From Carboxydothermus hydrogenoformans Z-2901 (lineage in GTDB: Bacteria; Bacillota; Z-2901; Carboxydothermales; Carboxydothermaceae), in assembly GCF_000012865.1 (NCBI RefSeq), contig NC_007503.1, positions 806,001 to 870,000 of the forward strand: DNA of 64,000 nucleotides. The letters run 5' to 3'. The notes under the pieces were generated by a model that was given only the letters and a program-made list of their open reading frames with translations, was not told the origin of the DNA and ran no database searches. Numbering within the stretch: the first letter of the stretch is position 1; each line of letters begins with the position of its first letter. This document shows, piece after piece, positions 27,035 through 45,394 of the stretch. The translations under genes and the position numbers were made by a program.

Positions 27035-27202
27035 GCTAATACCTCCTAAACTTTAGTAAACTCGAATGTCCTTGGACTAAATACCCCTCTTTTAATTAAT
27101 TCGGAAGAAAAAAATATTTTTTAAGTAAAGGTAGACTGAAATATGTGAAATGGTGCAGGGAATTGAAAAAATAAGACGAATTTATTTATCGAGGTGAAAC
27201 GT

Positions 27203-28102
27203 ATGTTTGATTTAAGTCCGGAACTCCAAAATAAACTTCGTGAATTAAACAGTTTATTAAAAAACCGCCGGGAAAATTTAAAAAACCGGGTGGCCATAAG
27301 AGAAATGCTTAAAAACCGTGGAGCTAAATTTATTAACCTTAAGAATTATGACAGCAACGAAAACCTCCTCATTACCGGAATAGACGGTTCGGTAAATTAC
27401 TACGGAGTCTACCCCTATCGCATCTTTTTTTTCCAGGCCTATGCGGCCACCCCGAAAGGCGATAAAATTATAGTAAGCGATGTCAAAGCACCTTTTTTAG
27501 AGGATAAACCGGACGATGACCCCAAAGATCGTGTGCTTCCGGCTTTAGAGCTTGAAGCTTCATTAAAGGCAATAGACCGGTTTAAGCCGGATATAATGCT
27601 TTTTGATGGGGGATTTATCCGTTACCGCCGGCACGCTCCCGAAAGGTGGGAACAGGTGGAAAAGGCCCTTTTGGAAAAGGATGTCTTGGGAATTGGAATT
27701 ATTGAAGAAGCCCAGTCTCAGGCAATTGCCAAAATCGTAACCGACCAGATAGGGGTTTACGACCGGGAAATTCTTTTTGGCCTCTTAAATCCCGGAGAGG
27801 CACTTTTCTTTGACGAAACGTTAAAAGATGGTTTCTTTACGGTTTTTGCAAGACTTAGCAGGCATCCCCAGGCTATCGCGGTGGATTTCTTAGAGAGTCA
27901 AAAAGAACGGGCGAAGATGGCGTTAGAGCTTTTATATGCACTAACGCCGGAAGATTCTCGCGGAATTCCTTTTTTCCTTGATGTCATCGATTCCAAGACT
28001 AAATTATCGAAAGAAGCGGTAGAGATACTCCTTGCTTCTTGTTTTGACCGAGAAATTTTAGAGTTATACTTACGGCCGCTTAGGGAAGAACGGTTACTTT
28101 AA
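27203..28102 (+). CDS. nurA: NurA-type 5'-3' nuclease
   Basis: 299 residues. The N-terminal part is basic and helical (about residues 1-50), followed by the NurA nuclease domain: ITGIDGSVNYYG with the first catalytic Asp, DIMLFDGGFIRYRR with the second metal-binding region, and GIIEEAQSQAIAK. NurA resects DNA ends together with HerA in archaea; HerA and Mre11/Rad50-like genes follow here in the same operon. GAGGTG (27191-27196) supports ATG 27203 over GTG 27194. Confidence 0.85.
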   Translation: MFDLSPELQNKLRELNSLLKNRRENLKNRVAIREMLKNRGAKFINLKNYDSNENLLITGIDGSVNYYGVYPYRIFFFQAYAATPKGDKIIVSDVKAPFLEDKPDDDPKDRVLPALELEASLKAIDRFKPDIMLFDGGFIRYRRHAPERWEQVEKALLEKDVLGIGIIEEAQSQAIAKIVTDQIGVYDREILFGLLNPGEALFFDETLKDGFFTVFARLSRHPQAIAVDFLESQKERAKMALELLYALTPEDSRGIPFFLDVIDSKTKLSKEAVEILLASCFDREILELYLRPLREERLL

Positions 28103-28118
28103 AAGGAGAGGATCAAAG

Positions 28119-29969
28119 GTGCGGGTTGTTGGTGTTAGCACCCAGCAGTTTGTTTATCTTGCGTCGGAGAGAAAAAAGTTTTATGTTAATGAAATTTTAG
28201 TAATCGAAGACCCGGATTTGGGAAAATTACGGGGGGTAGTCATTGAAGCTAAAGCCATAAACCGCTATCTTCCCCTGTCCTTTGAGAAAGGAACGGTCCT
28301 TGACCAAAAAGTTTTTGATAGCTTAACCAGGCTTGGCTTTAATCTTGCCGATGAAGAAGTTAATATTGCTTACGTTCGCCTCCTGGATACGGCGGCCCTT
28401 CCGGTAAAAGTTGGTTCCCCGGCCAGGGTTCCGACTTTTCCCGAAGTAGCGGACCTGTTAGTACGCCAAACACCGGATAAAGGACTGATCTTAGGGGAGA
28501 TTGCGGGAAGCGAAGCTTTAGGAACACTGCCGCCGGAATATTCTAACTTGTACTGTCTTCTTGAAAATACAGGGCCGGTAATGGGAAAAGGCGTTCCCTT
28601 TATTTTTGACTACCGCTCTATGGCTGATTACCCACATATAGGAATTTTTGGGGGTTCAGGCTCGGGTAAGTCGTTTGGATTAAGGGTCCTTTTGGAAGAA
28701 TTAATGGCCAAGAAAATTCCCTGCCTCGTTTTTGATCCCCACGGGGAGATGGAGTTTTCCGAACCCTATCCGGGAATCCCCAAAGAAATTGCCCGGGATT
28801 ACCGGGATAGATATCTTTCATTAAAAATTGGGGACGAAGTGGGGATTAGATTTTCGGAGCTTACCACTCCGGAACTGGTGAGTCTTTTAAATGCCATAAG
28901 CAGCATTAGCGAATCGATGGAAAGTGCCGTGGAAGCTTTATTTGAACCGGGAAAAGATAGTGAGGTTACCTTTGGGGAAAAAATCAAAGCATTACTGGAA
29001 GCTTTGGAAAATGAAAAATTATATAAAGGGCCCGTACCCGATTATTTGGAAGGAGAAACTTTAAAAAGACACCTGTTTGTCCGGGAAATTTATGAGAAAT
29101 ACGGCTACCGGGTAAACCAGTACCAGAGTTTAAAAGGTATTCTCTGGCGCTTTGAAAGTTTAAGAGCCAAAAATCTTTTTGCCAAATCGGTAGCGATTGC
29201 CCAGGAGGCTTTGCTTCAGCGAAAAACGGTAGTTATCCGGGGAAATTTGAGCTTACTTAAGATTTATTCTGCCTATCTTTTAAGAAAGCTGTACTATGCC
29301 CGGCGAAATTACGTGGATTTACGCACTTTCGGAGAAACCGGCGAATATTTTCCCCCGTTTTTTATCGTAACCGATGAAGCGCATAACTTTGCCCCTAAGG
29401 GAGAGAAAGAAACGCCTACCCGGAGAATATTGCGGGAAATTGCCCAGGAAGGACGAAAATACGGGGTATTCCTGACGTTAGCCACCCAGCGGCCGGCCCT
29501 TTTGGATGAAACTATTACCGCCCAGCTATCCACCAAGTTTATTTTCCGCACCGTTCGGGCTACCGATATCAGCACCATTCGGGAAGAAACGGATATTACC
29601 GGGGAAGAGGCAGCCAAACTTCCCTACCTGCCTTCGGGTTTAGCTTATATAAGCTCTGCCTGGATCGGGCGAACCGTACCGGTAAAAATTCGAGCCGCTC
29701 ACACCAAGAGTCCGTATACGGAGAATCCTTTTGATGAGTTAGTCGAAAAGACATCAGTAGCTTCGGAAAAATTACTGGCAACATTAAAAAAATTTCTCCC
29801 CATTAGAACCACTTCGCTGAACGCCCTGTTACCGTATATTGGCGATGAGTTAGGGCGGGAAATCAGTTATGATGAAATTATCGCTTTTTTAAATGACCAG
29901 GTGGAACAGGGGGTTTTCGTAAAAATTGATCACGGTCCCTTTGGTTTCGAGTATGTTTTAAAGGAGTAG
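28119..29969 (+). CDS. herA: HerA-type DNA translocase/helicase
   Basis: 616 residues. An N-terminal HAS-barrel-like segment (about 1-110) precedes a FtsK/HerA-clan ATPase: Walker A GGSGSGKS (178-185), Walker B FFIVTDEAHNFAP, and a C-terminal QEGRKYGVFLTLATQRP with the arginine-finger-type region. HerA hexamers translocate on DNA and drive NurA nuclease. It lies between nurA and mre11, matching the archaeal herA-mre11-rad50-nurA cluster. AAAGGAGAGG precedes the GTG start. Confidence 0.9.
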   Translation: MRVVGVSTQQFVYLASERKKFYVNEILVIEDPDLGKLRGVVIEAKAINRYLPLSFEKGTVLDQKVFDSLTRLGFNLADEEVNIAYVRLLDTAALPVKVGSPARVPTFPEVADLLVRQTPDKGLILGEIAGSEALGTLPPEYSNLYCLLENTGPVMGKGVPFIFDYRSMADYPHIGIFGGSGSGKSFGLRVLLEELMAKKIPCLVFDPHGEMEFSEPYPGIPKEIARDYRDRYLSLKIGDEVGIRFSELTTPELVSLLNAISSISESMESAVEALFEPGKDSEVTFGEKIKALLEALENEKLYKGPVPDYLEGETLKRHLFVREIYEKYGYRVNQYQSLKGILWRFESLRAKNLFAKSVAIAQEALLQRKTVVIRGNLSLLKIYSAYLLRKLYYARRNYVDLRTFGETGEYFPPFFIVTDEAHNFAPKGEKETPTRRILREIAQEGRKYGVFLTLATQRPALLDETITAQLSTKFIFRTVRATDISTIREETDITGEEAAKLPYLPSGLAYISSAWIGRTVPVKIRAAHTKSPYTENPFDELVEKTSVASEKLLATLKKFLPIRTTSLNALLPYIGDELGREISYDEIIAFLNDQVEQGVFVKIDHGPFGFEYVLKE

Positions 29970-29974
29970 AGAAA

Positions 29975-30970
29975 ATGCGTTTTTTATATATAACCGATAC
30001 CCATTTTCGCGGGAATTCGCCCCAAAACCGGATGGATGATTTTCCCCAAACTTTAAGAAAAAAAATGGAGGAAGTGGTACAGGTAGCCCAGGACCTTCAG
30101 GTGGAGGCCGTTTTGCACGGTGGGGATTTGTTTGAAATTCCCAATCCTGCGGTAAACGTTGTTGGTGATGTGGTAAGATTTTTAAAAGCACTGGGGAAAC
30201 CGTTTTACATTGTTCCCGGCAACCACGACCTTTTTGGCCAAAACCCGCAAACTTTAAACCGCACCATGCTGGGCTTGCTGGGTCAGGTAGGGCTTTTAAA
30301 AATTTTAGAACCGGGAGAAAAAGTTTTCTTTAAAAAAGACGGAATAAGCTTGCAGCTTACCGGGCAGGGTTATCACTTTGACCTCGATACCGAACGGGGG
30401 CGGGAAGGCTATCTGGTAAAAAATAAAGAAGCGGACCTTGCCATTCACATTGTCCACGGTATGCTTTTAGATCGGCCTTTTTTCCAGACGGTGGCGTATA
30501 CCTTAATTGATGATATTAAAGAAACCGAAGCTGATTTAACCTTAACGGGTCATGCTCATCTTGGTTTTAACGAAATCGTCGTTAACAATAAAAAATTTAT
30601 AAATCCCGGAGCATTAGTTAGAACCACGGTACTGCCGGCGGAAGTAAACCGTTGGCCGCAAATGGTCTTAATTGAAGCTGGGAAAGACGGAATTACTACT
30701 AAGTTTTTGCCCTTAAAAACAGCACTACCCGGGGAGCAGGTCTTAAATATTGAAAAGGCGACGGAAATGAAGTTACGGGAAGAACGGTTAGCCCGGATAA
30801 TCAGCGAAGTAAGATCATCCGGGGATTTCCGCAGTTTAAAGCTGGAAAATATCCTGCGGGAAATTGCCCAAAAAGAACAGCTACCGGAAGAAGTCCGGGA
30901 AGAAGCTTTAAAAAGAATAGCTCAAGCGGAAATAGAAATGGCCCGGGAGGAGGTAGACGATGTACCTTGA
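29975..30970 (+). CDS. Mre11/SbcD-like DNA repair exonuclease
   Basis: 331 residues. It contains all calcineurin-like phosphoesterase motifs in order: ITDTHFRG (DxH), HGGDLFEI (GD), VPGNHDLFG (GNHD), IVHGML and TGHAHLGFN (GHxH). The C-terminal ~80 residues are charged and helical and may be the cap or Rad50-binding part. It would be the Mn-dependent nuclease partner of the Rad50-like proteins encoded just downstream, whose start overlaps it by 11 bases. Shorter than SbcD (about 400). Confidence 0.88.
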   Translation: MRFLYITDTHFRGNSPQNRMDDFPQTLRKKMEEVVQVAQDLQVEAVLHGGDLFEIPNPAVNVVGDVVRFLKALGKPFYIVPGNHDLFGQNPQTLNRTMLGLLGQVGLLKILEPGEKVFFKKDGISLQLTGQGYHFDLDTERGREGYLVKNKEADLAIHIVHGMLLDRPFFQTVAYTLIDDIKETEADLTLTGHAHLGFNEIVVNNKKFINPGALVRTTVLPAEVNRWPQMVLIEAGKDGITTKFLPLKTALPGEQVLNIEKATEMKLREERLARIISEVRSSGDFRSLKLENILREIAQKEQLPEEVREEALKRIAQAEIEMAREEVDDVP

Positions 30971-32399
30971 AAAATTAATTCTGGTAAATTTTCAGTCCCA
31001 TAAATATTCGGAATTTAATTTTGCACCGGGCTTAAATGTCATCGTTGGAGAATCGGACCGCGGGAAAACGGCGGTAATCCGGGCGCTGCGCTGGCTTTTT
31101 TACAACGAACCCAAAGGGAGCGAGTTTATCCGGGTAGGAGAAAGGGAAGCAAGGGTGACCGCCCATTTTTCTAACGGCTTAATTGTTTCCCGGGAAAGGA
31201 GCGACCGGAAAAACCGCTATGTTTTAATAAAACCCGGGGAAGCACCGGTAGTTTTCGAAAAGTTTGGTCAGGAGGTACCACCGGAAATTAGCGAAGTTTT
31301 GGGAGTGCAAAAAATCCGCCTGGATAAAGATTGGGAAGTAGCTTTGAATTTAAGTACCCAGTTAGAACCGCCTTTTTTACTTTTCGAATCGGCCACCCGT
31401 AAGGCCAAAGCTATCGGGCAGTTTCAAGGGGTGCATCTTTTGGATTACGCGGCGAAAAACGTATCCCGGGATATCCGGAACATCGATGAAGAGATACGTT
31501 ATAAAAATACTGAAATTGCCGCATTAAAAGAAAAACTTGAGGAGTTTGCGGATTTGCCGCACCTTTCCGCAAGATTAAATAACTTAAAAACCAGAAAATT
31601 TATTGCCCAAAGTGTTATTGAACGCTTGAATAACTTAACCGCCCTTCGGGAAAATCTGGAACAGGTAAGGCAGAAAATTCAAGAAAATAGAGATATAGTT
31701 AAAAAATTTGGGGTGGTCTCGGTAGAAAAATTTTGGAAAATCGAAGCTTTGTATAAACGTTATCAGGAACTTTTAAAGTTAAAGGAAAGTTATACGGGAA
31801 TTCTACAAAAGAAAAGAGAAGCTCTGGAAATTCTAAACCACACCACAGCGCTACCCAGGGCGAAAGAGTATTTAGAGGAAGCTATGGATACTTACTTTAA
31901 GCTAAAAACTTTACAGCAATTGGCGGAAAAACGGCAAAAGATTAGCGAACAGAAAAGAAAACTTCTGTATATAATCAGTATCTTAACTCCGGTGGAAGTT
32001 ACCGCAAGGAAATACCAGGAGATATTGCCCGACTGCAAAAAACAGCAGGAGTTACTTGGTAAATACCAGGAGTTACAGAAACTTGGCAGGCATAAAACTT
32101 ATTACGCGGGAATTATTTACAAATACCGGAAAATACCGGAATTGGCCCAAACTTTAAAAAATCTTGAAGAAAAATTAAAAAGGTATGAACAGTTAACGGT
32201 TCTCTTTCATAACCTTTCGGGGATACACCGGAGGAAAAAAGAGCAGGAAAGGGAACTTGAGAGAATTAAGCAGGAGGTAGTTAGCCTGCAAGATCAGTAT
32301 AGAGAGGCGCTCCTGCAGGCCGGACGCTGCCCGACCTGTAATACACCTCTGGATGAAATAACCGTGCAAAAGATAATCTTTGGGGAGGTAGTGCGATGA
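30960..32399 (+). CDS. Rad50/SbcC-like protein, N-terminal ATPase half ending in the zinc hook
   Basis: 479 residues. It opens MYLEKLILVNFQSHKY with the SMC/Rad50 N-terminal strand, has Walker A GESDRGKT (30-37), then a long coiled coil from about residue 165, and a CxxC zinc hook (CPTC, Cys457 and Cys460) only 20 residues from its end. A usual Rad50 would return through a second coil to Walker B in the same chain; here that half is on the next two genes. GGGGAGG (32383-32389) and an ATGA overlap begin the next gene. Confidence 0.82.
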   Translation: MYLEKLILVNFQSHKYSEFNFAPGLNVIVGESDRGKTAVIRALRWLFYNEPKGSEFIRVGEREARVTAHFSNGLIVSRERSDRKNRYVLIKPGEAPVVFEKFGQEVPPEISEVLGVQKIRLDKDWEVALNLSTQLEPPFLLFESATRKAKAIGQFQGVHLLDYAAKNVSRDIRNIDEEIRYKNTEIAALKEKLEEFADLPHLSARLNNLKTRKFIAQSVIERLNNLTALRENLEQVRQKIQENRDIVKKFGVVSVEKFWKIEALYKRYQELLKLKESYTGILQKKREALEILNHTTALPRAKEYLEEAMDTYFKLKTLQQLAEKRQKISEQKRKLLYIISILTPVEVTARKYQEILPDCKKQQELLGKYQELQKLGRHKTYYAGIIYKYRKIPELAQTLKNLEEKLKRYEQLTVLFHNLSGIHRRKKEQERELERIKQEVVSLQDQYREALLQAGRCPTCNTPLDEITVQKIIFGEVVR

Positions 32400-32659
32400 A
32401 TTTTGAAGAAAAGCTCAATCAATTAAAAAAGGGAATAGACACAGCCTTAAACCATAAAAACCGGGCGGAAGCCCTTTTAATGCACGTTCAGGAACAGGAA
32501 AAAGAACTCTTGCGGCAAATTGAAGAACTCGGGGTTGAGCCGGACAAATTGGAGGAAGAAATCAAGCGCCTGGAAGAAGAGCTGACCCGGCAAATTGCTG
32601 AAATGGAACGGGAAATTCCCTGGGACTTAATTGAAAAGTTAGAGGCGAAGGCCAAATGA
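32396..32659 (+). CDS. Short coiled-coil protein, middle part of a split Rad50
   Basis: 87 residues, almost entirely Glu/Lys/Leu heptads (EEKLNQLKKGIDTAL... EEIKRLEEELTRQIAEME), with no catalytic motif. It is joined to both neighbours by ATGA overlaps and has its own ribosome site. Its place in order matches the returning coil of Rad50, so it probably assembles with the flanking halves. I know no named family for it; the Rad50 role is inference from context. Confidence 0.72.
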   Translation: MNFEEKLNQLKKGIDTALNHKNRAEALLMHVQEQEKELLRQIEELGVEPDKLEEEIKRLEEELTRQIAEMEREIPWDLIEKLEAKAK

Positions 32660-33309
32660 GAGAAAAACTTTTACAGTTAGAGGAAGCGTTAAATCAATTA
32701 GAACAGTATTATCTTATTCGGAAGGGTCAAAAGGAGCAAATAGAAAAAGAACTTTTGGAAAAAGAAGAGAAGTTAAAAGAGCTTACCGCGGAGCGGGATA
32801 AACTCGAAAAAACCCGTTATCTCTTACTGGTGGCCGGGCAATACGCCCGGGAACAGGCGAAAAAATATCTGGAAGATATTGCTACAAGCACTCTGCAGTA
32901 CGTGTTTGGCCCGGAAATAAGCCTGGAAATAGAACTTTCCGAGCGGGCCGGAGCCAATACTGCCGAGTTTTTTGTGGTATCCGATTACGGTAGCTTAAAA
33001 GTAAAAAACCGCCCGGAAGATGCCCGGGGCGGCGGAGTGGTGGACATCCTGTCCTTAGCTTTAAGAATATTTTTATTAAATGCCGTTGAACCAAAAATTA
33101 AAGGTCCCCTGCTTTTAGATGAACCGGGAAAACACGTATCGGAAGAGTTTGTAGGTTCTCTTGCCCTGTTTTTAAAAGAAACATCCCGCCATTTTAACCG
33201 GCAGGTAATAATGGTTACGCACAATCAAAACCTGGCGGGAATTGCCGATAAAGCGTTTTTAGTGGAGTTAAAAGAAGGGGTTTCGGAAGTAAGGGAGTTA
33301 AACCTTTAG
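32656..33309 (+). CDS. Rad50/SbcC-like protein, C-terminal ATPase half
   Basis: 217 residues. A coiled coil (about 1-80) leads to the ABC-ATPase C-lobe: a glycine-rich signature-like ARGGGVVDILSLALR, Walker B GPLLLDEPGKHVS and the H-loop VIMVTHNQ. The signature departs from LSGGE and the D-loop is GKHVS rather than SALD, so it is a divergent Rad50 type. Together with the 30960 gene it would complete one ATPase head. Its stop overlaps the convergent GGDEF gene by 12 bases. Confidence 0.8.
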   Translation: MREKLLQLEEALNQLEQYYLIRKGQKEQIEKELLEKEEKLKELTAERDKLEKTRYLLLVAGQYAREQAKKYLEDIATSTLQYVFGPEISLEIELSERAGANTAEFFVVSDYGSLKVKNRPEDARGGGVVDILSLALRIFLLNAVEPKIKGPLLLDEPGKHVSEEFVGSLALFLKETSRHFNRQVIMVTHNQNLAGIADKAFLVELKEGVSEVRELNL

Positions 33310-45291: not shown

Positions 45292-45394
45292 CATTTTCCG
45301 AAAAAGGCAAACCCGGCGAAAGCCGGGGACGCAAAGCTACAGGGGCTAAAGCAGGTTGTCCTGCTATGCCAGCCAGCTGCCGAAGGTGGAAATT
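45292..45394 (+). promoter_or_regulatory. Cyclic di-GMP-I (GEMM-I) riboswitch
   Basis: The aptamer core GGCAAACC, a GAAA-capped stem (CCCGGC/GCCGGG), GGGACGCAAAGC, GGGGCTAAA and a second stem GCAGG/CCTGC closing before TATGCCAGCCAGCTGCC are in the order of the GEMM-I c-di-GMP aptamer. ATTTTCC (45292-45298) and GGTGGAAAT near 45385-45393 can close P1. A terminator follows within 10 bases. It should control the HD-GYP gene, and perhaps motAB behind it, in response to c-di-GMP. Confidence 0.93.

Follow-up and report, generated by a model that had tools for sequence, protein, structure and literature searches.

Organization of the operon

The stretch of DNA analysed here (the window; 64,000 nucleotides, positions 806,001-870,000 of the 2,401,520-bp genome of Carboxydothermus hydrogenoformans Z-2901) carries an operon of six genes. 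These encode the nuclease NurA, the predicted DNA translocase HerA, an Mre11-like nuclease and three proteins, RadN, RadS and RadC, among which a Rad50 appears to be divided. Numbered from the first nucleotide of the window, with product lengths in amino acids (aa), the genes are as follows.

27203..28102, + strand: nurA, nuclease; 299 aa from the ATG at 27203, with an in-frame GTG at 27194
28119..29969, + strand: herA, predicted hexameric-type DNA translocase; 616 aa, after a 16-nt gap
29975..30970, + strand: mre11-like nuclease gene; 331 aa, after a 5-nt gap
30960..32399, + strand: radN, putative N-terminal Rad50 half with Walker A lobe, coil and zinc hook; 479 aa, 11-nt overlap with mre11
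32396..32659, + strand: radS, coiled-coil protein between both Rad50 halves; 87 aa, 4-nt ATGA overlap with radN
32656..33309, + strand: radC, putative C-terminal Rad50 half; 217 aa, 4-nt ATGA overlap with radS

The initial annotation had described a single tight nurA-herA-mre11-Rad50-like operon in a Firmicute, with gaps under 20 nt and several overlaps, and both the host and the layout were borne out (gaps of 16 and 5 nt; overlaps of 11, 4 and 4 nt). Stop and start codons overlap as ATGA at the radN-radS and radS-radC junctions, the three genes being translationally coupled, and ribosome-binding-like sequences lie upstream of most starts in the operon.

A Rad50 predicted to be encoded by three genes

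Judged by sequence, Rad50 appears to be naturally encoded here as radN, radS and radC, none of which is a complete Rad50. The genes that had been called Rad50-like do carry Rad50 lobes, but these are distributed over three open reading frames (ORFs): an N-terminal half with the hook, a coiled coil and a C-terminal half.

The N-terminus of the RadN family profile matches Rad50 heads, and profile residues 413-479 separately match zinc-hook crystal structures of Rad50 (6zff, E 2e-6; 1l8d, E 7e-6). The hook itself, C457-P-T-C460, has both cysteines invariant in 79 sequences; the median distance between the hook and the RadN C-terminus is 21 residues. Walker A residues G30, G35 and K36 are invariant, within a family motif, Gx[ST]DxGK[ST], that is unlike that of Rad50. 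The best Foldseek match of the AlphaFold model of RadN (predicted local distance difference test score [pLDDT], 83; predicted template modelling score, 0.40) was Rad50 1f2u_A (E 1.4e-6). Residues 1-156 aligned to this chain with a Z score of 13.4 over 132 residues; since SMC chains scored equally, the Z score places RadN only in the ATP-binding cassette (ABC) superfamily, while the Foldseek E-values favour Rad50.

With the RadC family profile, Rad50 chains ranked first (3aux, E 1e-10; 1f2t_B, E 7e-10). Of the two chains of Pyrococcus furiosus Rad50, 1f2t_A matches RadN and 1f2t_B matches RadC. The Walker B residues D155 and E156 were present in 197/197 sequences and the H-loop residue H189 in 196/197. 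The ABC signature is RGGG[VI]VD (here RGGGVVD) rather than LSGG(E/Q), and the signature Ser position is occupied by Gly in 195/197. RadS, in which P49 is invariant among 13 aligned sequences, was found in 184 of the 191 loci that carry both Rad50 halves. In the strict sense this is not a Rad50, because it is neither a single chain nor a bearer of the LSGG signature; that the split complex works like Rad50 is nevertheless well supported.

Three ORFs where one was expected, in a genome that has AddAB, could mean that a Rad50 gene is decaying by frameshifts into a pseudogene while AddAB suffices. This is extremely improbable, given that both split points are shared by well over 100 loci, that start and stop codons overlap or lie close together and that active residues are conserved in all parts. 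The conservation of both split points also rules out a sequencing error.

The Mre11-like, NurA and HerA proteins

The predicted model of the Mre11-like protein (pLDDT 91) had only Mre11/SbcD structures as its top structural matches, the best being 4fbw (Z 25.8, root-mean-square deviation 2.8, 249 residues aligned, 20% identity). The residues of the calcineurin-like phosphodiesterase site are conserved (D8, H10, D51, N83, H84, D85, H158, H161, H193 and H195). The protein falls below the cut-off for canonical bacterial SbcD (TIGR00619, 25.8 bits versus 77.65). Three helices are predicted in its C-terminal part (259-281, 290-300 and 305-328), where residues past 274 barely aligned to known structures; on the model, these helices may bind the Rad50 coil.

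NurA scored 119.5 bits against the Pfam NurA model (gathering score 21), and its acidic active site, D64/E119/D138 when numbered from the GTG, is kept in at least 97% of 31 relatives; a sequence search of solved structures gave no match for this protein. The central domain of HerA scored 73.6 bits against Pfam (cut-off 23.2), with Sulfolobus HerA 4d2i as its best match among solved structures (E 4e-18). Its Walker A motif, GGSGSGKS, and the Walker B residues D419 and E420 are conserved. HerA lies below the cut-off of the archaeal HerA equivalog (NF040937, 73.4 bits versus 800).

The initial annotation had called the set archaeal-style, and the nearest curated HerA, Mre11 and Rad50 models are mostly archaeal, as an ordinary archaeal operon brought in by lateral transfer would have it. 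Such an origin is very unlikely, as all scores lie far below the curated cut-offs and the operon matches its host in G+C content (0.436 versus 0.43); a recent transfer is supported by neither measure. Moreover, the split form turned up in Bacillota and phages, with one further case in a metagenome-assembled genome (MAG) labelled Deltaproteobacteria, and other Bacillota have unsplit operons that come nearer to the archaeal layout. In five NurA-positive, radC-negative Bacillota loci (L238-L242), herA and an mre11-like gene precede an ORF for an unsplit Rad50-like protein, whose CPxC motif lies around residue 430-465; one of these ORFs runs past the fetched stretch, and the other four are complete, at 853-889 aa. 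In Bacillota, HerA-NurA is therefore paired with two kinds of Mre11-Rad50. What holds of the archaeal label is the set of functions; the split Rad50 with its changed ABC signature is specific to Bacillota and phages, and it is the unsplit loci that are truly archaeal-like.

Recurrence of the split form, phage modules and natural fusions

Loci were fetched from the phylum sample (58), from named GTDB species genomes (80 of 295 matches) and from viral contigs (57). In 181 of them, radN with a C-terminal hook, or an Mre11-RadN fusion, was accompanied by radS and radC. The split genes are tightly packed, with median gaps of -4, 1 and -1 nt across 133 loci. Because the gene set and its order recur in dozens of genomes, the operon arrangement is not due to chance; the split, too, is shared by dozens of Bacillota. 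The MAG labelled Deltaproteobacteria (L134) carries the full nurA-herA-mre11-radN-radS-radC operon and groups with Bacillota, which reflects either lateral transfer or a binning error.

Two gene orders were observed: mre11-radN-radS-radC in chromosomal modules, and radN-radS-radC-mre11 in a phage-type form that is common in viral contigs and occurs in Bacillus phage vB_BboS-125. In that phage (NC_048735; L007, 11250-12230), a 326-aa mre11-like ORF downstream of radC occupies a gap in the deposited annotation, and an AP2-domain gene, gp33, possibly a homing endonuclease, lies between radN and radS. The phage parts are currently annotated as unrelated exonucleases, ATPases or hypothetical proteins. 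Microbacterium phage Magritte has distant radN-like (L008, 2998-4050) and radC-like (L009, 284-934) genes that are far apart in its genome. Second copies of the module were seen on another contig or far away in G108, G294 and G071 (L079, L082 and L084); the second copy in G108 has the phage gene order and seems to belong to a prophage.

The frequency of the mre11-last form in viral contigs and its presence in vB_BboS-125 raise the possibility that the module originated in phages, where a split Rad50 would have served recombination-dependent replication, and that cells captured it and coupled it to HerA-NurA later. We consider this possible but doubtful. The phage-type loci form one clade (support 98) nested among chromosomal forms, in a quick, unrooted radC tree that gives no direction of transfer, and a phage origin would concern the ancestry of the module, not its present function.

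Natural fusions were of two kinds. In four viral contigs Mre11 and RadN are fused, with radC separate; in L186 (4573-8609; 218,948 bp) the fusion is followed by radS, one other gene and then the separate radC. L186 is probably Bacillus phage 0305phi8-36; a megablast search gave no match. In three genomes of one family (f45), a single chain of 684-700 aa joins Mre11, RadN and RadC, and the long coil, the hook and RadS are absent:

L083, 5764-7818: single-chain Mre11-RadN-RadC
L085, 4652-6754: single-chain Mre11-RadN-RadC
L087, 4583-6670: single-chain Mre11-RadN-RadC

ORFs of addB and addA size follow the single-chain ORF in the two genomes that were inspected, and in the third AddA is encoded nearby. 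These natural fusions indicate that the Mre11, RadN and RadC parts belong together. Since RadS is absent exactly where the coil and hook are absent, these three related genomes suggest that RadS serves the coil and hook.

Distribution of the module and replacement of SbcCD

Distribution was assessed in 398 genomes of the phylum, with tests uncorrected for shared ancestry. radC was present in 65 genomes, NurA in 72 and both in 53, so that the description of the set as unusual in a bacterium was too strong. NurA occurred in 53/65 radC-positive versus 19/333 radC-negative genomes (p=6e-38, uncorrected for phylogeny). It was also present in all 24 named genomes with a chromosomal module, mostly at a site not adjacent to it.

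Canonical SbcD exceeded its cut-off in 162 genomes, 2/65 with radC versus 160/333 without, and both of the radC-positive genomes carry a phage-order module. Among the 24 named genomes with a chromosomal module, canonical SbcD was not found in 21. Thus, the chromosomal module largely replaces SbcCD. AddA exceeded its cut-off in 11/65 radC-positive versus 211/333 radC-negative genomes.

The initial annotation had thought AddAB or RecBCD-type enzymes likely in the host. A genome check for addAB and sbcCD bore out AddAB in C. hydrogenoformans: AddA scored 1020 bits, and the adjoining 1102-aa ORF is taken as AddB by position and size. No SbcC or SbcD follows AddAB, and no other SbcCD-type complex was detected in this genome, the operon Mre11 being the sole SbcD-like match. 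Further, none of the genomes sampled from families f29 (15), f38 (6), f40 (5), f91 (5) and f1 (3) lacked the module, which argues for housekeeping repair and not for defence. The pattern that the initial annotation had set against its own proposal of a repair backup or a defence system, a sole and ubiquitous SbcCD of the lineage, is therefore largely what was found, and neither of the two proposed roles is supported.

As an anti-phage system, HerA would act with NurA as effector and the Rad50/Lamassu-like part would sense phage DNA ends. HerA does partner with effectors in known defence systems, and PADLOC models match HerA (2.8e-22), RadN (LmuB, 7e-14) and RadC (mad3, 2e-10). These matches reflect shared ATPase motifs. 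HerA reaches 73 bits against the archaeal repair models but 51 and 43 bits against those that NCBIfam has for anti-phage HerA, the six operon products include no Sir2, DUF4297 or LmuA partner, and the ATPase is split, unlike LmuB. Defence loci are patchy, whereas this module is found throughout several families, where it replaces SbcCD, and its locus is syntenic across three Carboxydothermus genomes. Defence was rejected as the main reading on the basis of these model scores, the missing effector, the family-wide presence and the synteny, and is very unlikely.

The closest named relative found was C. islandicus (L097), whose RadC is 98% identical. A divergent gene lies upstream of the operon and a convergent GGDEF gene downstream. 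A scan for promoters and terminators gave matches at chance level only. Elsewhere in the window, a c-di-GMP-I riboswitch aptamer lies at 45296-45384 on the + strand (89 bits versus a gathering score of 35).

Proposed mechanism

Mre11-Rad50 is a core break-repair machine that tethers and clips DNA ends under ATP control, and in canonical complexes the head and arm of Rad50 lie in one chain. It is likely that Mre11, RadN, RadS and RadC form an Mre11-Rad50-like complex that hands ends to HerA-NurA for resection; recognition, clipping and resection of DNA ends is the most likely function on the sequence evidence. One ABC ATPase head would be formed in trans from the Walker A lobe of RadN and the signature/Walker B lobe of RadC. 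Such assembly is proposed because, in 1f2t/1f2u, the N- and C-terminal halves of P. furiosus Rad50 make up a head although they are not joined in one chain. The zinc hook that ends the RadN coil would pair with that of a second complex, and RadS may cap or complete the coil and hook. The ATP-driven head would control Mre11, which would clip blocked or hairpin ends. HerA, as translocase, and NurA, as nuclease, would then resect the 5' strand, a polarity that we infer, and leave a 3' tail for RecA; in vivo, the module would presumably act in repair. HerA-NurA is known to resect 5' strands (PMC9960219; PMC5448004). Sequences and predicted models show the gene order, the folds, the catalytic residues, the hook, the conservation of the split, NurA co-occurrence and SbcD replacement.

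Several observations weigh against it. The RadN coil, at about 295 residues, is far longer than the descending coil available from RadC and RadS, which leaves the geometry of the arm unexplained. Given the Ser-to-Gly change in the signature, ATP handling may differ from that of Rad50. Because C. hydrogenoformans also has AddAB, resection by the module may be redundant in part. Finally, deletions of HerA-NurA in Deinococcus and Thermus led to modest effects on, or even improved, damage resistance (PMC9960219).

More tentatively, and with somewhat less than an even prospect of being right, the module might represent a distinct Mre11-Rad50 family, with an ATPase built in trans, a hook at a free C-terminus, RadS completing the arm and ATP-site motifs, Walker A GxSDxGK[ST] and signature RGGGVVD, that changed together. 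Its head could open DNA by subunit exchange, and one lineage would have re-fused everything into a chain lacking coil and hook. If so, that chain would be a natural test of the purpose of the Rad50 coil and hook. In whole families, break repair appears to rely on a three-piece Rad50 with HerA-NurA, canonical SbcD being mostly absent; Bacillaceae, with Shouchella clausii and Alkalihalophilus pseudofirmus as examples, are among them. The natural variants (split, partly fused and coil-less single chain) allow direct tests of coil, hook and head opening.

Comparison with known systems

The module shares with SbcCD and Mre11-Rad50 the Mre11 fold and active site, the Rad50 head lobes and the zinc hook. 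It differs in having the lobes on separate polypeptides, the hook at a C-terminus, RGGGVVD in place of LSGGE and the additional RadS. The catalytic domain of P. furiosus Rad50 (1f2t, 1f2u) likewise forms its head from separate N- and C-terminal halves, but as a laboratory construct, whereas the split here is natural. Fusions of Mre11 and Rad50 are known, and a 2011 survey noted that, of the P-loop segments, one went unobserved in Anaerostipes and Bacillus phage 0305phi8-36 (PMC3175470). In the fusion of that phage, Mre11 is joined to the N-terminal half of Rad50, as in L186, where radC is separate and radS stands between; the separate radC would account for the ATPase half that had seemed to be missing.

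With Lamassu LmuB and HerA defence systems the module has in common a Rad50-like or HerA ATPase; unlike them, it has the Mre11 and NurA nucleases in place of an effector and is near-universal in families. The archaeal HerA-NurA-Mre11-Rad50 operon (Constantinesco 2004, as cited in PMC9960219 and PMC5448004) unites the same four functions, with the same likely end clipping and 5' resection. In contrast to that operon, Rad50 here takes up three genes, and all proteins score far below the archaeal equivalog cut-offs.

A bacterial nurA-herA pair in an operon with sbcDC has been reported in Oceanithermus profundus (PMC5448004), and that operon and L238-L242 are likewise bacterial nurA-herA-mre11-rad50 arrangements. 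L238-L242 differ in their single-chain Rad50 with a mid-chain hook and in a HerA of 531-554 aa from a different lineage. A literature search of a partial open-access collection retrieved no prior description of a split Rad50. HerA-NurA-SbcDC operons in bacteria were already known (PMC5448004), and the three-gene layout of Rad50 appears to be the new part.

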